This document shows positions 5,047-56,200 of a DNA stretch of 64,000 nucleotides, piece after piece; position 1 is the stretch's first letter; every line of letters begins with the position of its first letter. The notes below the pieces were generated by a model. The model made no database searches and was not told the DNA's origin. It worked only from the letters and a program-made list of their open reading frames with translations. The DNA lies in the NCBI GenBank assembly GCA_037176885.1, contig JAWWNJ010000201.1:124001-188000 (forward strand), given 5' to 3'. The position numbers were made by a program, and so were the translations under genes. The DNA comes from Favolaschia claudopus (lineage: Eukaryota > Basidiomycota > Agaricomycetes > Agaricales > Mycenaceae).

Positions 5047-8000
5047 TTGACAACGGCACTAAGCAAATCACCGATCAACACGACCTCGACAGACCTGCGA
5101 AGCTACCGCGGCATTCTCGCCATTGGAGGCCTAATTCTGGCCCAGTATGGCATCTTCTCAGGTCACCCACTTCCGCGCAACAAGCGTAGATCATGCTCAC
5201 GTCTTCAGGTGGAGAATGAAACCCGTAACGCGCGCTGGGAGAAAGACCAAAATAAAGCCGGCTTCGCGCGATGTCCTGAATGCAAACGACTTCTGCAATA
5301 CGGCCCTGGAGGAGTAGTCAACCTTGAAAAAACCCTGTGGAAGTGAGTTCTGGATGGGAGGTGATCCAGGAAAAGGGTCGGTGGTCCGAAGATGGTGAAG
5401 CACGGTGAAGGTGAGGTGTGTCGAATATCGCCTGTACGGGTAGAGCAGGAAATACGAAGAATAATGGAGTAAAAATGGGAGTGATTCGGAGGGGGTGTGC
5501 TCGGACTCGGAAAGCTCGGTAACTCGGTATCTCGGTGGCTAGAAGCCCACTGGCGACGTTCCACGAAGGAACAGTGGATTCACTCTCTGGAACCCTAGCG
5601 CTCGTGCGCTACACTGGCCGCGATGGTGGTGGTACAAGGGTAAGATTGCACGATCAACTCCTATCTACGACAGCTGTACCTAATGATCGCAAATAGAAAT
5701 TATTGTGCAGCAAGTGTGAACGGGATAAAGTAGAGAAAGAGATGTGCGGGTCAGCTACCCCTTCCACAGTGGGGGAAACCTTTGATGTCGACCCCGACAT
5801 CCCGTGAAACAAGAAGGAAAGATGACCCGCACTCTCGGTTACGGGACGAAACGGAATGAATATCAAGGCAGTGAGGTAAAATGCGCACGAACGGGTGCCA
5901 GATATTCAGCCAAACTCTGTGTTCCCCTCTGCGTCTCCAGTCGATCTATCATCGCGATGATCAGCGCCAATTGACGGCGAAACACGGTATTTCCAACGAG
6001 GATTTCGAAAATGAGCAGCGGAAACTTGTCGACGCCGGGGATGTGCGGTTTGGTGGCATGTGAAGGTGAGTGATGGGGAGGATGACGAGCTGGTGAAGTT
6101 GGAATTGAATGGATACTCGGCACAGTTGGAAATATGAAGTCGCGGGAAGGATGAGGATTAGGGTGGATTGGAGGATCGGAAACTCGACTCGGATGAACAG
6201 GTTCGAGGTGGGGGAAACCTTGAGATTTTCGAAGATCGGGATGAGGAGAAGGCGAAGGATGGTTGTAGGATGCTAGAAGATGAGCCGCGACACCGCCTCG
6301 ATTGCGTGTCATCGGAAGGGGAGATCCGTCGTAACGAACAAGACGTCCCTCGAGCGTATAAGCTGCCAACTTCTTCTCGATGAGCTCGGCAGTTCGTGGG
6401 CATGCAGCATAGCTGAGTCGATGAGCGCGTGTCTTTCCGCAAACAAAGCAGCGAAGCGAGCGTTGTACGCGTGAAGTCGAAATAGGAGTCGTAGGAATCA
6501 TGACGGCGATCTCCGGAACGTGCGTTTGAGCGACAGATATTGAACGGATAGGGGATAGGGATGAGTGAGGATGACTCGGGAACGACTCGGAAGGCTCGAA
6601 GCAGGGCGATACGACGGCGAGAGGGCGAATAGAATGTGGAGATGGATGGGATGAAGCACGGACCAACACGGAATACCCTGCAGGTCAAGCGAAGCGTAAG
6701 ACCTGCCCTCCCTCGCGGTGGGCTCCACTGTGGAAGTGAGTTCTGGATGGGAGGTGATCCAGGAAAAGGGTCGGTGGTCCGAAGATGGTGAAGCACGGTG
6801 AAGGTGAGGTGTGTCGAATATCGCCTGTACGGGTAGAGCAGGAAATACGAAGAATAATGGAGTAAAAATGGGAGTGATTCGGAGGGGGTGTGCTCGGACT
6901 CGGAAAGCTCGGTAACTCGGTATCTCGGTGGCTAGAAGCCCACTGGCGACGTTCCACGAAGGAACAGTGGATTCACTCTCTGGAACCCTAGCGCTCGTGC
7001 GCTACACTGGCCGCGATGGTGGTGGTACAAGGGTAAGATTGCACGATCAACTCCTATCTACGACAGCTGTACCTAATGATCGCAAATAGAAATTATTGTG
7101 CAGCAAGTGTGAACGGGATAAAGTAGAGAAAGAGATGTGCGGGTCAGCTACCCCTTCCACAACCCACCTCGGTAAACAGGTCTGTGTCGATGAAAAGAAA
7201 CAGGTCGAAAATGCAAAGAAGACACGCACACTTGGCCAATTTTTCACGAAGAAGGCTCCTCCCGTGCCGAGCACTGTTCGTGCGCCGCCCCCCGTCGGTC
7301 CTTCTCGTCTTCTTCTGTCCAATTCGAACCAAAATTCTGGTCCCATCAATATTCCGACTTCATCTTCGCGGACTGGGCCAACCCCATCTGTTATCGCGCG
7401 TTCCGACACCTCAGACTCGGCTCGGCGTCTCACAGATCTTATCATTCAACTGCGAGAAGGCGCTCGGCATCTTCCTCCCTCTCCAGAAGCAGACGAATCA
7501 AACCCACTGTCAATTTTCTCTGCGGAACCAGCCTCGTATGTTCCCGCCAACGCCGATCCCGAAAACTTATGGGAGCTTCTATCGTCAACATTCCACAAAG
7601 CCTTTGACTATGGCGGAAGTGCGGAAAGTCGGGAGCGTATGATTCAACCCGGACTTTTGGGGATCGAAGGATTTTGTCGATTTCTCGAGTATTTTGTAGG
7701 ACGCGGGCTCGAAGGAGCAATGGTGGAATTAAAAGCTGAACAATTACTGTCTGCGCTGAATTCCATGTAAGTCACCGTTGCTATATCATCTCTTTTAGCT
7801 AGTAGGACCTGATTAATACCATTCAGACGCGAAAAATCTGGCATTCCTCCCCCAACTCCATCGCCTCAGCATCAAGCAGCCTTTGAAATCGCCCCCCACG
7901 AAGAAGCAATCGATGCTAGCGTACCCTCAACCCCGAAAACTCAACAACACTGCGTAGGCTTCATTTTTCCGTGCGGTTTGGACTACCCGTGGGGCCTCCA

Positions 8001-11000
8001 CGACAAGATAACATTTCCGTGGAGTGTTCATCTCGATCGCGGCGTCATCACTCTCCGATCCCACGCATGCGCAGGCCAGCCGGCGAGTGGGAGGACCATG
8101 TGCGCCTCTTGCTCTGGTTTATCTAGCGAAACGAGCATGGAAGGGATTCTGGATCGCGCCGAGCACGGAATTCCTGCCAGCGCCAATTACGCTTATTACG
8201 GTGTTGCGGGACTTACCGAGCTTCTGCGGCGTAAGAGTCAACAACTTCAGGAGCTCCGTTTGAAGGGTATGAACACAGCACGAAAGCTTTTGGTCCAGGC
8301 ACGCTCGCTTTCGGATTATAAGCGTCTCGTTCGTGCAATTGGCAGTGGGGTGGCGCAGAACGTAGATCGTCTCATTCGGGTTGCTTTGAGGCAGGGGCGC
8401 GGTGTTCGTGGCGTGCTTCGGCTTCACGACGAGGCTGCGCGGGGCGTCTATCATCCGAAAGATTACACAGAGGAGGACGATCTGCGGGGCATTTTGAATT
8501 GGAAAATGGGCGGAAATCGGCTCGCCGATTTTGCGCATCGAGCTCTCGGTCTCCCGAGTCGAACTACATTGCGAAATCGACTCACCGTACCTCCCATCAC
8601 GCCTTCACCAGGAATTCCACAGGTTGCGGAGGTGGCGCAAAATGTTGAGGCATGTTTCAAGGGCTTGAAGGACGCTCTGACCGATCGGAAAGCCGTCCAC
8701 GCGATCCTGATGTTTGACGAATTGGCAACCGAGAAACGGATTCGCTGGGATGACAAGACAAATAACTTCCTTGGTGTCTGCAGACAGCATGGGCACCGCG
8801 TCTCGTTGCAATTCAATAACGAGGACGATCTCGAAGAGCTTTTTCGAGCTTTGGATTCAACCGTACCGACTCAAGCTGTTCATCATGCGGGGGAGGTAAG
8901 ATATTTGAATTCCATCTATTCAGAACTTGGATTTACTGTTTTACAGGCGACTGTGGCAGCTGTTGGTGTACTCAGCAGCGATACCCGTCTCTACGCTGCA
9001 CGCCCAATACTTATTTCGGGCGACTGCAAAAAAGAGACGGGTGCAGAACATGCCGCCAACGTGATACGCCCCACAATCGACGGTGTGAACAGCAAAAAAG
9101 ATCTGCACAACCTTCGCATCGTGTCGATCGAATCGGACGGCGAAAGCCGTCGAGGTTCAGCTTTCATCGACTTGACATTCGTTCGGAAGCTATCGCCGGA
9201 GTCCCCTATTCACCCCCATCTGAAGGATTTGCCCCTCATGAATCTGTGGGTCGGCGAAGACGATCTAACTCCTGGCAAAGACCCGAAACATGTTTTCAAG
9301 CGAGGGCGGAATCGGTTCTTGCGCAAGTCTGGCACCCAAGTCATGGGTGTCTACATCTCACCCGCCATCATTCGAACTCATCTTCAATCGGTGCAGCATT
9401 CCTTCCAGCATATCAACTCTGTCTTGAACCCCAAGGACAAGCAGGACGTCAAATTGGCCTTCGAATTACTGAAAGATATCTGGTCTTTACCTCTGGTTTT
9501 CGAGAACAGTCGCCCAGGCTTCATATCCACTCGCACTGCGCTCCACACTGCCGGTACATTATTCTTGCATCTCCTTTTCCCGTACATCTGTGTCGACCTC
9601 TCTTTATCTGAGCAACTCGAGCACCTCAGCGCAGCTGCTCATTTGACCTTGGTCCTGTACCGCGATGGAGGGAAAGAGGCATTGCCGACACTTCTCTTCA
9701 CCGATATCATGATTATGATCAAGAACGTCTACTTCTGCGTTGCGAAAGCAAAAGTCGATGATCCTGAAGGCAACTTTTGGTTGGTTTTGCTCGGCACAGA
9801 TCGTCTAGAGCAACTTTTCGGAATCTTGCGCACTATGATCGGCAATGACTCGAATCTCGATCTGCTTCAACTCGTCGAGCGAATCACAGGTATGTTCAAC
9901 TCTTGAATGTCATCAGAAATCATGGTAATTATCGAATCCTAGGTACTACGGAATGCGCAAATATATTCGCAAAGTACCCACATTGGGATAGACCGCCACG
10001 GCGACTATCGCTGCCTGCATTGACGCGGGACGCGACTGAACTGCCCGACAAAGTCGATCACATCCGACCACCCTCCTGGCACGGCAGCACAGCCGTCCGA
10101 GATGTGACTCTGCTCACTTGCTGGAACCGCGGACGTCGTACTCTTGAGGCTGAACTCCCGCATATCGTATCCGCTCTTCAGTCTCTAGATGCCGATGCAG
10201 CCTCCAACCCCGATATCGACATTCTCTCTCCGCACGGCACCCTCATCACAAAAGTCAACATCGACGCGGACGACAATGAAGACGATGATGAACCAGATAC
10301 CGAAGATTCTACGACTACTCATTCTTTGGCTCACGACATCGAAGACGCGGTGATGGAGGAAGAAGAACGTGAGGCGCTCGCAACCCCAGTTGTCTCTCAT
10401 TCCATTGATATGGGCGGCAAACTCGTTCGAAAAACTCGTGCGCTTGGGCTGATGCAAAATTATCGTCGGAGCCCAAGTTCCACTGATCGTTTGCGCCGTG
10501 TCGCCGACATCGAGCGATTTTCGCGTGTTGAACCAACAGGTATCGCTGAATTTGATTCAGCATTTGGCGCTCCATCGATCCTCATCTCCGAGCCGATCGT
10601 TACCCTGGTTCGTTGCGACGACAAGCTCTTTGTCTGCGTCGGAGAAGTTACCGATATATTCGTCGACTCGCAGTCTGTTGACCAAGTTGCACTCGATACT
10701 CTGCTGGAGCGAGCGACCACCATATCATTTCAGATCCTACGCCTTGCTGCAGCCACCATCGAAGACGATCCCTCATTGAAACACGACTGGGTTTCTGGAA
10801 GTCGCATCAAAGCAATTCACTCTGCTCCAGGACGGCTCGTCCTTCCCATCGACCCTGCTCTTTCCACTCGTATCCCCGCCAAGCCATGCTATCTACTCGA
10901 CAGCTCAACCTTACGTGCATTCGGCGTTCGCCTCTTGGAATTGAACACAAAATCTACGAATAAATCAATTCCGAAATTCACGCCGACCGAAAGTTTTCCG

Positions 11001-27191: not shown

Positions 27192-27491
27192 ACGCCCTCG
27201 AAACTGTTCCACCACCACCTTCACCACCACCTGTACCACCACCACCTCGACGATCGACTCGCGAACGACGGCCTCCACGGCCCTTCGCCACCGCTGCGGA
27301 ATACGAGGAGGAGGATGGGGAGCAGGAAGAGCTGGAGTCGTTGAGGGAGAACGATGAGGAGATTGCGCGCATGCCAGAGGATGATGATGGAGAGGAGAGG
27401 AAGATGTTAGAGGAGCTGAACGCGTACCTGTCGGAGAATCCCATCGACGTTGAGTTCCCGAACAATCCCAGGAACTACAGCGAGGCGATGG
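27192..27491 (+). pseudogene. Copia copy 2 integrase-RT linker
   Basis: Pro-rich then RRSTRERRPPRPFATAAEYE, a long acidic segment and LSENPIDVEFPNNPRNYSEA, the usual approach to the Copia RT. It runs straight into RT once the 132-base element at 27492 is removed. Confidence 0.7.
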
Positions 27492-27623
27492 TGTTGGGAA
27501 AATGGCTGAAGCAGGATTCGAACCTGCGACCTTCTCATGTCATGTGAGATGCTCTGACCCGAAGGTATCCAACTGAGCTATTCTGCCGATAGTGCGAACG
27601 GGACTAAACCCCAGACTTCAACA
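27492..27623 (-). mobile_element. 132-base LTR-like element carrying a tRNA-like gene (copy A)
   Basis: Reads, on the minus strand, TGTTGAAG ... TTTTCCCAACA, with TGTTG/CAACA ends and a 5-base duplication GATGG (27487-27491, 27624-27628). Removal restores the Copia frame NYSEAM|AAPDAAQW. Ends and duplication are those of an LTR integrated by a retrotransposon integrase, yet nearly the whole length is a tRNA-like unit. It has 4 differences from copy B. Confidence 0.88.
27503..27587 (-). tRNA. tRNA-like gene inside the LTR-like element, Met-type body with altered loops
   Basis: Acceptor GGCAGAA/TTCAGCC pairs at 6 of 7 positions; A box TAGCTCAGTTGG, B box GGTTCGAATCC and the T arm (GCAGG/CCTGC) are intact. 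The D loop carries about 10 extra bases and the anticodon loop reads CATGACA without U33, so it is probably not a working tRNA. TTTT follows the discriminator base, a Pol III stop. Confidence 0.65.
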
Positions 27624-27628
27624 GATGG

Positions 27629-28649
27629 CGGCACCGGACGCGGCGCAGTGGATGGAGGGAACGCGCGAGGAATTGGAGTCTCTTCGTGAGCAAGGTGTCT
27701 TTAAACTCGTTCCTCCGTCTGCCCTACCTGCTAACAAAACAATACTCGACCTCCGCCCCGTCTACGCTCGCAAACACGACATGAATGGCAATGTCGTACA
27801 ACACAAGGTCCGTTATTGCGCGAAAGGCTTCCGACAGGTCCACGGGCGCGATTTCTTCGACACGACATCGCCGACCGCGCGCCTCGAGTCCTTCCGTGCG
27901 CTCCTGCACCTCGCGACCTCGCGCGGCTGGGACTTGCAGCAGATCGACATGAAGACCGCATTTCTCAACTCCGCCCTGCCGGAGGAGGAACGACAATACG
28001 CGCGTCAGCCGAAACATTTCGAGGAGGAGGGGAAGTTGGATTGGCTGTGGGAGTTGTGGAAGGGGATTTATGGCCTGAAACAGGCGTGTTGGAAGGTGTA
28101 CACCAGATGGAAGCCGAAAAGGCAAACAGAGCACCAGATGGGAGGCGAAAAGCCCAGTCACCTGTTGTCACAAAGTGCCTAAATACGTGACAATGTACGA
28201 ATAAGGAAGGCAACACCGTCTGTACCAAACCACGCCAAACACCACGTTCAACAAGGCGGGGCGGTTATGGAACAGGGAGTTGAATGCGGCGATGTTGGGA
28301 TGGGGTTTCCGCCGCCTGAGCTGCGAATGGTGCGTTTACTTCCGCAGGACCGCCGATGGGAAGATCACGATTGTGGTGATTCACGTCGACGACATGGCGG
28401 TCGCTGCCTCCAGCCGGGATGAAGCAAGCTGTTTCAAAGCTCAGCTTCGTTCGCGTTGGACGATATCGGACCTGGGCGACATAAATTACTGTCTTGGGAT
28501 CAGAATCGTCCGTGACCCAGAATGCCGTACCGTCGCCTTGTCCCAAACCGCTCTCATTGACCGTGTCATCGCCCAATTCCGCCAGACCGACGCTTATCCT
28601 GTCGCCACTCCGATGGAGCCGAAACTCCGCCTCGTCCGCCCCGACACCC
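27629..28649 (+). pseudogene. Copia copy 2 reverse transcriptase, interrupted
   Basis: APDAAQWMEGTREELESLRE (27633) opens the RT; LQQIDMKTAFLNSALPEEE (27938) and WKGIYGLKQA (28056) precede the insertion 28087-28253; after it GRLWNRELNAAMLGWGF, VVIHVDDMAVAASSRD (28373, the xVDD site) and INYCLGIRIVRD continue in frame to PMEPKLRLVRPDTL. There the third insertion (28650) lies, and beyond it no RT or RNase H continues. The element is therefore truncated at its 3' end and has no 3' LTR. Confidence 0.82.
28087..28253. mobile_element. 167-base LTR-like insertion without tRNA
   Basis: TGTTGGAAG ... GTTCAACA with TGTTG/CAACA ends and a 5-base duplication AGGCG (28082-28086, 28254-28258). Removal restores GLKQA|GRLWN of the Copia RT. 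The interior has an imperfect tandem repeat around CACCAGATGG (28100-28150). No coding or RNA gene seen. It looks like a solo LTR of a very small element. Confidence 0.82.
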
Positions 28650-28781
28650 TGTTGAAGTGTGGGGTTTAGTCCCGTTCGCACTATTGGCAGAATAGCTCAG
28701 TTGGATACCTTCGGGTTAGAGCATCTCACATGACATGAGAAGGTCGCAGGTTCAAATCCTGCTTCAGCCATTTTCCCAACA
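28650..28781 (+). mobile_element. 132-base LTR-like element carrying a tRNA-like gene (copy B)
   Basis: Same element as 27492-27623 in the opposite orientation, 132 bases, ends TGTTGAAG and CCCAACA, with its own 5-base duplication CACCC (28645-28649, 28782-28786). It is an independent insertion, because the duplication differs. Confidence 0.88.
28686..28770 (+). tRNA. tRNA-like gene inside the LTR-like element (copy B)
   Basis: A box TAGCTCAGTTGG at 28693-28704, B box GGTTCAAATCC at 28749-28759, TTTT at 28771-28774. Acceptor and T stems pair as in copy A; anticodon loop CATGACA. The body resembles fungal elongator tRNA-Met, whose loop would be CTCATAA. Confidence 0.65.
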
Positions 28782-28787
28782 CACCCT

Positions 28788-53256: not shown

Positions 53257-56200
53257 CGGTCAAAGGGAATCGAAGGCAGCAACAGCAATGGAGCGAGGTT
53301 TGGAAGGGTATTTGCGGTAGAAAGCAGCGACAGCGTCCGGGGCAAAGACATTAGAGTGCTTCACCCATTGATCATGGGACGGGTCATAACCCTTCCAGCG
53401 AACAAAGTACCATAGACTCCCGTAGCGGATCTTGGCATCCAATATCTCCTCGACCTCCCATTGCTTGTCGCCAGGGAACGTCAAGGACTGGTGGCGGCTC
53501 TTCGTGTCTGGGGCGAGTGGGGAATGGATCGGCTTCCACAAGCTGAAGTTTCACGACAGGGAAGACAGGGTGGAGGGCAGAGTACCGGGGCGGCAGCTCC
53601 AGTTTGAAGGCACCATTACCGACGACCTTCAGAACCTTGAAGGGGCCGATACGCCGGTGGGAGAATTTCACCGAAGGGCGGGGTGGTGCGGATATCTGAA
53701 GCATCAACCCACACCCGGTCACCAACCTTGATGTCTGGAGCTGGTGTCCGCCGGCGGTCATAGTACTGCTTGTACTCTGCTTTGGCCTTGACAAGTGCTG
53801 CCTTCGCCTCGGAAACCCCCTGATGCAATCCGATCGTGGAACTCGTTCACAGCCTCCAACCTAGAGCGTGCAGCGTGGGGCTCAAAGCCCATCCGTGGAA
53901 GCCGACCAGTGTCCGTCATGAACGGTACCTGCTGCGTGGAGGAGTGCATGTGGTTGTTGTACGCAAACTCCGCTGCAGGTAGCAGCTCATCCCAGTCGTC
54001 CTGCTTGTAATTGGTGAAGAGTCGGACGTACTGCTCGAGTTCCTGGTTAACACGCTCCGTTTGGCCATCGGTCTGCGGGTGGTAGGCCGTAGAAGTGGCT
54101 GGGGTGACCCCAACGAGGCGCCAAAGCTCGCGCGTGAACTCTGCGATGAACTGGGTGCCACGATCCGAGATGTACTTCTCTGGCAGGCCATGGTGGCGCC
54201 AGACGTTCCGGTAGTACAGCCGAGCAGCACCAACCGCGTCGATGGTGGTGTGACACTCCATGAAGTGCGCTCTCTTCCCAAGGGCACAGACAACGACCAT
54301 GACTGCATCGTATCCATGGGCCTCGGGAAGCTCGACGATAAAGTCGACCGACACGGTGTGCCAGCGCTCTTCTGGGATCTCTGTGGGGTGGAGCTCACCA
54401 ATCGGCAGTTGACGAAGCGCCTTGGTGCGGCAGCACAAGTCACAAGTCGCCGACATACCGACCGACATGGCGCGACAGCTGGGGCCACCAGTAGTTCCGA
54501 GACAACGAGCTCCAGGGACTTGAAACGACCAGCATGGCCTGCAACGCGCGTGTCATGGTGCTGCTCCAGGATGCGTCGGGCGGAGGTCCTTGTCTCGGGG
54601 GACGACAATCTTCCCCCGGAAGTAAAGGAGTCCACCTTCAATACGCCATTCCGAAGACCGGGCGGACCGCACACCTCGGGCCTTGAGGAGTTCCTTCGCA
54701 GTCAGGGCAATGGGCTCTTCAAGGTCGGGGTCTCCAGCAAGCGCATCACGAATGTCGCGCAGGAGGGGAGCCTCAGGGCCAGCAATAACCAGGGCCTCGG
54801 TGGCCCGAACGTGGAACAGCTCGGGTCGAAGCAGGGTAACGTCCTGGTTATCGTCCTGCACTCCATGGTCCGGTCTCCGAGAAAGCGCGTCGGGGCGACC
54901 CATGAGGCGACCCGGTTGGTGGTGCAGCGAGAAGTCGAAACGGGGAGAGGTAGAGAGACCACCGAGCTTGGCGACGGTTGAGCTTCTGGGCCTTCCGGAA
55001 ATATTCCAGGTTTTTGTGGTCCGTCCAGATCTCAACTGGGTGCTGCGCGCCCTCAAGGAAGTGGCGCCACTCCTCAAGGGCTCGCACGATCGCAAGCATC
55101 TCCTTGTCGTGAATCTCGTAATTCCGCTGCACCTCGTTCAGGCGTTTGGAGTAGAACGCAACCGGATGCCACTTGCCATCGTCACCCCTGCTGGGAGAGG
55201 ACGGCGCCGGTGGCATAGTCAGAGCTGTCAGCCTCGAGCCGGTACGGGCGTTCGGGGTTCGGGAGAACCAGAACGGGGTCCCGAGTCACCCGCCGCTTGA
55301 GCTCGTCAAAGGCAGCTTGCTCTTCAGGCCCCCAGGTCCAGGCAATGCCCTTCTTGGTGAGTCTGAAGAGGGCTTGAGCAACGTCTGAGAAGCCCGCAAT
55401 GAACCGGCGGTAGAAGTTTGTGAAGCCAAGGAACTGCTGCACATCCTTCTTATTCTCAGGCGCTGGCCAAGCTGCCACTCCTGCAACCTTTACAGGGTCC
55501 ATCTCGACGTGGTTGTGGGGAGATAATCACGCCGAGGTACTCAATGGAGGTCCGCTCAAACTCACACTTCTCGGCTCGAAGGTAAAGCTTGTTTGCGCGA
55601 AGCCTCCGCAGGACCTCTCGGACGATCTCTCGATGCCGACGGATGTCTGAGTGGGCAATGAGGGATATCGTCGAGGTAGACCATGACGTCGCCAGAGAGG
55701 ATAAGATTCTGGAAGATGTCATTCATCATGGTCTGGAAGGTTGCAGGGGAGTTGGTCAGACCGAAGTACATGACCAGCGGCTCAAACAGTCCCCGGTTGG
55801 TCCGGAACGCTGCCTTCCACTCGTCGCCTTCACGGATTCGAACGTTGTTAAAGCCCCATCGGACATCGAGCTTCGTGAAGTACCGGGCTCCCCTGAGTCG
55901 GTTGATGAGGTCGTTGATTAAGGGGAGCGGGGTAACAATTCTTCACGGTCATAGCGTTTAAAGCTCGATAGTCCTGTACGAACCGAAGTCCGCCGTCCTT
56001 CTTCTTGACGAAGAAGACAGGTGAGGCCATAGGTGATTTTGACGGTCGAATCCGGCCAGTGCCAAGTCCCTCCTCGATGAAGGCATCAAGTTCCTTCTGT
56101 TCGAGAGGCGAGATTGGGTGTCAGGGGAACCCCTGTTCTGCGCAGCATGACGCAAAGGGACTTGGGCACTTCTGCCCAAGTCCCATTACAATCATTCCTG

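Follow-up and report, generated by a model that had tools for sequence, protein, structure and literature searches.

A probable Helenus-type TRIM family with a tRNA-like sequence in its LTRs in Favolaschia claudopus

Helenus was described in 2024 as a group of TRIMs that carry a tRNA-like sequence in their LTRs (Kojima 2024, PMC10886601). Its published hosts are rust fungi, three Agaricomycetes, animals and Selaginella. The fungal families, which were ascribed to Copia, are reported to have 5-bp target duplications, and most of them use anticodon-loop primer sites. Priming with the 3' end of initiator tRNA-Met was reported to have arisen several times (PMC10886601).

We analysed a 64,000-nt stretch of genomic DNA (hereafter, the window) and searched the genome from which it comes (264.6 Mb, 460 contigs). 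Its source, Favolaschia claudopus, is a wood-inhabiting mushroom. Two short repeats in the window had been interpreted, in a sequence-only reading, as a TRIM-like element or as a SINE mobilised by an LTR integrase. Comparison with the rest of the genome indicates that they are very probably solo LTRs of a Helenus-type TRIM, with copying and integration of the LTR type. Elements of this kind are already known, and what is new is the family in a further fungus, F. claudopus; no other report of a Helenus family in this fungus was found in the literature searched, outside which most subscription journals lie.

Two short LTRs in the window

Both repeats were 132 bp long, with the ends TGTTG and CAACA. 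Copy 1 was located on the plus strand at 28650..28781 and copy 2 on the minus strand at 27492..27623. The target duplication CACCC flanked copy 1 (28645..28649 on the left and 28782..28786 on the right), and GATGG flanked copy 2 (27487..27491 on the left and 27624..27628 on the right). The sequence-only reading was correct in the coordinates and strands of the copies, their equal length and the four substitutions between them, and the ends and duplications were as it had claimed.

Each copy contained a tRNA-like sequence, at 28686..28770 on the plus strand in copy 1 (85 nt, with the anticodon loop CATGACA) and at 27503..27587 on the minus strand in copy 2. Both matched Rfam RF00005 with 51.3 bits, the gathering score being 29. 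5S rRNA, the feature of Cassandra elements, was absent: at gathering scores, these two tRNA matches were all that Rfam gave for the window. ARAGORN (bacterial setting) reported no tRNA. In copy 1, an A box (TAGCTCAGTTGG; 28693..28704, plus strand), which is a putative Pol III promoter element, and a B box (GGTTCAAATCC; 28749..28759, plus strand) were read by eye. A 25-nt piece of the A-box region matched the window at two places only with up to three mismatches, as compared with zero matches in 100 shuffles, and an exact scan of viral contigs with a 25-nt A-box piece gave no match. The TTTT at 28771..28774 (plus strand), a putative Pol III terminator, directly followed the tRNA-like sequence, seven bases before the LTR end and within the last 11 LTR bases; it had been noted earlier as lying inside the element's last bases. 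The sequence-only reading had also credited each copy with an A box, a B box and a paired acceptor stem. The two boxes were confirmed. The stem was not paired throughout, its fourth pair being mismatched in all 26 aligned LTR rows with letters at this place (A-A in 25 rows, C-A in one).

The target of the insertions was a broken Copia pol (RVT_2) at 27629..28081 on the plus strand (Pfam PF07727, E 1.8e-27 on 27592-28089). Between the two Helenus LTRs, and nested in this broken pol, a solo LTR of a Copia family was found at 28087..28253 on the minus strand (167 bp, 5-bp duplication AGGCG). Its identity to L109, a Copia LTR on C124, was 96%. The window locus had a twin on C145, 99.9% identical over 3.3 kb and with the same insertions. 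The published assembly of F. claudopus comprises 265 Mb, and 86.8% of its BUSCO genes are duplicated (PMC10905254). It seems that the assembly contains both nuclear genomes, which would explain the twin.

Two further features of the window were recorded. A Gypsy-like integrase fragment at 53758-54468 (minus strand) had a weak Pfam rve match below the cut-off, and this Gypsy region is the unfilled target of a Helenus copy on C14. An open frame of 642 aa at 7978-9906 (plus strand) had close relatives among the proteins of many Mycena and of other mushrooms, and no Pfam family was found for it at E 0.001. Among the hits of a window protein, whose named relatives were from mushrooms and often from Mycena, one was from F. 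claudopus (81% identity over 39% of the query).

Complete elements and insertion sites

At least 45 stretches of the genome matched, fragments and twins included; this is a lower bound, since 40 of 81 first-look candidates were scored. The genome search for paired direct copies that had been proposed with the sequence-only reading was run and yielded two complete elements, with 118 and 122 bp between the LTRs and with a primer-binding site (PBS) and a polypurine tract (PPT) inside. The first (C30:1977702-1978083; 132-118-132 bp, 382 bp in total) had the duplication TAGTG on both outer sides, and its LTRs differed at one base. The second (L023, C212:167327-167701; 120-122-133 bp, 375 bp in total) had the duplication TCAAG outside. 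Its LTRs differed by seven substitutions and 13 gapped columns, and its 5' LTR, which was without the extra piece of the D loop, reached a tRNA score of 60.6 bits with Rfam. Both elements had the order LTR, PBS, short internal part, purine tract and LTR, and no coding part was seen in them.

The PBS behind the 5' LTR (TGGTAGCAGCAACT) was complementary over 14 nt to the 3' end plus CCA of the host initiator tRNA-Met, and the end of the element's own tRNA-like sequence matched the PBS over 4 nt only. Six initiator tRNA-Met genes with introns were found in the genome, assigned by the fit of their sequence to an initiator. ARAGORN labelled three of them Met and three His, and we ascribe the His labels to the intron. 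The purine tract GGGGGAG was located immediately upstream of the 3' LTRs. The internal part matched eight places, of which seven were in elements or in truncated, tandem or broken forms and one was in a fragment on C115. As a candidate for the LTR of a partner element, C115 was rejected, being a Helenus fragment that comprises an LTR end, the PBS and 67 bp of the internal part and adjoins an abundant repeat. Six further copies of this repeat were read, and each continued differently.

At C30:1941402-1941962 (L044, L045) and at L014, Helenus pieces were joined to a segment of a Gypsy pol, with the microhomology CATGA at the junction (by eye). The fusion at C30:1941402-1941962 was arranged in tandem with a 438-bp period, and its Helenus part was circularly permuted (by eye). 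L012 (C14:1592205-1599081) was a perfect inverted repeat, its two arms being 2,944 bp long and 100% identical, with one Helenus solo LTR per arm; it is either a real palindrome or an assembly artefact.

Target duplications were counted in the 18 insertions with both outer ends, namely 16 solo LTRs and the two complete elements. Twins or duplicates of one locus (C145, the second C14 copy, L017, L028, L033, L034, L036 and L038), loci with a missing outer end (L014, L015, L020, L027, L030, L035 and L037), the tandem at C30:1941402-1941962 and the partial group L039-L042 were left out of this count. The sequence-only reading had named the borders and the duplications as the features on which it would stand or fall. 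The TGTTG/CAACA ends were constant, and the 5-bp duplication was perfect in 12 of the 18 insertions, preserved at four of five bases in one and absent from five.

Unfilled sites were found for two insertions. For copy 2 of the window, the same Copia stretch occurred at L037 (C38) with GATGG present once. For the C14 copy, the site was the window's own Gypsy at 55113-55119, with CGAGA present once. In both cases, therefore, a unit of the LTR plus one duplication was added, and the unfilled sites are proof of insertion. Since the complete elements combine the LTR-internal-LTR order with a PBS, a PPT and 5-bp duplications, we regard the window copies as solo LTRs of a TRIM; the TRIM-like alternative of the sequence-only reading was thus upheld by the two complete elements, the PBS, the purine tract, the duplications and the unfilled sites.

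The tRNA-like sequence and its predicted transcription

The tRNA-like part was compared in an alignment of 28 LTR rows, including L033 (twin of L031). The A-box pattern was kept in 26 rows, and the misses were the C212 5' LTR, with a 12-nt deletion in the D loop, and a partial row whose first letters already lie within the box. The B-box pattern, or its consensus, fitted 22 of the 28 rows. In a descriptive calculation on 23 rows, nucleotide diversity (pi) was 0.007 in the A box, the lowest of eight LTR segments, and 0.036-0.085 in the other seven. With a pi of 0.074, the B box was no less variable than the remaining LTR; hence, the A box alone speaks for constraint, and conservation of the B box as added support for Pol III use was not borne out by pi in these 23 rows.

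The anticodon loop CATGACA has an A at position 33, and the D loop was lengthened in every aligned row but the C212 5' LTR, by approximately 12 nt relative to this LTR in copy 1 of the window. Together with the mismatch in the acceptor stem, these are marks against a role in translation. A co-opted tRNA, not used in translation, had already been proposed from the D-loop insertion and the anticodon loop. Both of these were seen, the acceptor mismatch was added to them, and the proposal agrees with Kojima, who considered it unlikely that a working tRNA is encoded by Helenus (PMC10886601).

Minimum-energy folds of the two window copies had z values of -2.17 and -0.69. The fold of the plus copy was close to a cloverleaf, its D arm being altered, and that of the minus copy was not. 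A stable UUCG hairpin, considered for the extra piece of the D loop, was absent from both folds. The C212 5' LTR, without the extra piece, folded as a cloverleaf (z -2.66) and ranked 13th among the 58 tRNA matches listed, and annotators should be warned that tRNA counts include LTRs such as this one. By eye, the anticodon arm resembled host tRNA-Thr(TGT) and the D arm resembled host tRNA-Ile(AAT). A pattern search for a single host gene joining a Thr-like anticodon arm and an Ile-like D arm gave no match.

We propose that Pol III would initiate in the 5' LTR, at its tRNA-like sequence, and that a fraction of the polymerases would pass the single T4 there and end at the T4 of the 3' LTR. By arithmetic on the C30 copy, the transcript would be approximately 339 nt long, with the tRNA-like body as its repeated R region (approximately 89 nt). 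Proteins of Copia elements would copy and integrate the Helenus RNA in trans, and recombination between the LTRs would leave solo LTRs, as in the window. From its sequence features, a full-length Pol III transcript of the element is moderately probable.

How such a transcript would pass the terminator of the first LTR is a checkable question, which was not found addressed in the portions of PMC10886601 used here. At the eight junctions between an LTR end and a PBS, TTTT was present in seven (the C20 chimera described below included) and TCTT in one, the complete C30 copy. Four junctions were examined further: three had T4 and no second T4 within 40 nt, and C30 was without T4 there. The internal part held another T4 in three of the four loci examined, which a Pol III transcript would need to pass too. 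For the host, terminators were taken from 61 distinct tRNA genes (64 loci), a set that takes in all but eight of the 58 tRNA matches listed; for three of the 64 loci, the sequence covered was shorter than 40 nt. A run of at least five T, or a further run of at least four T within 40 nt, was found in 56 of the 61 genes, and a lone T4 terminator in five. This suggests that the lone T4 of Helenus is weaker than most of the host tRNA terminators examined and offers a route to a full-length Pol III transcript. In budding yeast, only terminators stronger than six U stop transcription effectively in vivo, and where the first terminator is weak, a second one often serves as a backup (PMC4937561). Set against the host runs and the yeast data, the lone T4 makes read-through in the 5' LTR plausible. 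At the same time, a T4 may be enough for efficient termination by Pol III in F. claudopus, since five of the 61 host genes end in a lone T4.

A rather doubtful extension of the proposal would have the tRNA gene serve as promoter, R region and leaky terminator at once, with the T4 at the R/U5 border kept weak and the RNA co-packaged with Copia RNA in one particle. Co-packaging is included because a Copia copy carries a Helenus end and primer site. If the leaky-terminator reading were true, the problem posed by having the same terminator in both LTRs would be solved by termination efficiency.

For the transcription step only, a different course has to be weighed, in which the tRNA part is a passenger that gives only a Pol III RNA of approximately 89 nt, ending at the first T4, and Pol II produces the full-length RNA, using promoters that are cryptic or lie in the flanks. 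The presence of T4 behind the tRNA-like part in 22 of the 28 LTR rows is in keeping with it, as are the five host tRNA genes with a lone T4. The low diversity of the A box speaks against it, and so does Kojima's argument for promoter function from the conservation of the boxes in many families, itself made from sequence alone (PMC10886601). We consider the Pol II course unlikely and prefer Pol III transcription of the whole element.

Relation to Copia and to known elements

The LTR ends TGTTGAA/CCAACA were common to Helenus and a Copia family of the genome, to which the solo LTR between the two window copies belongs. Behind the LTR of this Copia family, GGTTATTGGGCCC or GGTTATGGGCCC was found, which fits the anticodon loop of the initiator tRNA (by eye) and differs from the Helenus primer site. 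One Copia copy (L052, C20:718400-728000) contained at 502-532 a stretch of 31 nt identical to the LTR end plus PBS of the C102 Helenus. The piece was located in the leader, four bases upstream of the start of the gag frame (Pfam PF14223, E 1.2e-13), and the copy had its own LTR end and primer site upstream; its second LTR was not found within 9.6 kb. The 31-nt piece was missing from nine other Copia copies read upstream of gag, including the nearest relative, C229 (96%), the search having matched 27 other places. A template switch between co-packaged RNAs would explain the C20 copy as a Copia-Helenus chimera, and a deletion in a nested insertion would explain it too.

An autonomous Copia with the Helenus PBS was not found when the genome was scanned with a 17-mer and a 13-mer, both matched exactly, and with a 16-mer for which one mismatch was allowed. 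All nine places with the 17-mer were in Helenus copies, in the chimera on C20 or in the fragment on C115. The 16-mer had eight exact places (Helenus and C115) and seven with one mismatch; in the six of these seven that were read by eye (C26 was left out), no LTR-like CAACA end directly preceded the site. The 13-mer occurred at 20 places, compared with 32 for its reversed control, and of the 12 places outside Helenus only C16 was read. The partner may have a shorter or diverged PBS.

The Copia-like LTR ends could point to an autonomous Copia whose LTR happens to carry a tRNA gene and of which the short copies are deletion derivatives. However, each of the eight matches of the internal part comes from the short element, from one of its broken forms or from a fragment, and the sole Copia gag that adjoins a Helenus end, on C20, is preceded by an LTR end and a primer site of its own, making this origin very improbable. 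A SINE mobilised by a LINE, with LTR-like ends that arose by accident, would account for the tRNA-like part but hardly deserves credence given the constant TGTTG/CAACA ends, the duplications of fixed length and the two-LTR copies with PBS and PPT. The SINE alternative of the sequence-only reading was ruled out because of the PBS, the PPT and the fixed-length duplications, and no poly-A or repeat tail was seen in the flanks inspected. A DNA transposon or MITE with TGTTG/CAACA as short terminal inverted repeats would suit the inverted 5-bp ends and the small size but has a vanishingly small probability, as the complete copies have direct terminal repeats, a tRNA-complementary PBS and a purine tract, features that MITEs are not known to have.

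Membership of the family in Helenus is accepted on the features tested, the published families having been compared by description. A recently named group of LTR elements with putative Pol III promoters is thereby extended to another fungus. Also new here are the unfilled sites of two insertions, the primer tRNA found in the genome itself, the Copia-Helenus chimera on C20 and the lone T4 terminator.

Like Helenus as described in PMC10886601, the F. claudopus family has two short LTRs, a tRNA-like sequence with A and B boxes, a PBS and a PPT. Its length of 375-382 bp lies inside the published range of 311-1263 bp, it shares the 5-bp duplications and the many solo LTRs, its tRNA is probably not working in translation, and its PBS is unmatched to its own tRNA. 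The host family, Mycenaceae, is missing from Table 1 of that paper, and its PBS corresponds to the 3' end of initiator tRNA-Met, unlike in most fungal Helenus families. The plant TRIM Cassandra also has a Pol III gene inside its LTR, but this gene is 5S rRNA and the hosts are land plants (PMC10886601). Ajax, a nemertean TRIM, shares a Pol III promoter sequence in the LTR and 5-bp duplications, whereas its promoter is a partial 5S rRNA, its hosts are nemerteans and its primer is tRNA-Leu (PMC10886601). The tRNA-derived SINEs (SINE2) are likewise short, non-coding elements with a tRNA-derived Pol III promoter; unlike the F. claudopus family, they use LINE machinery and are without LTR, PBS and PPT (PMC10886601).
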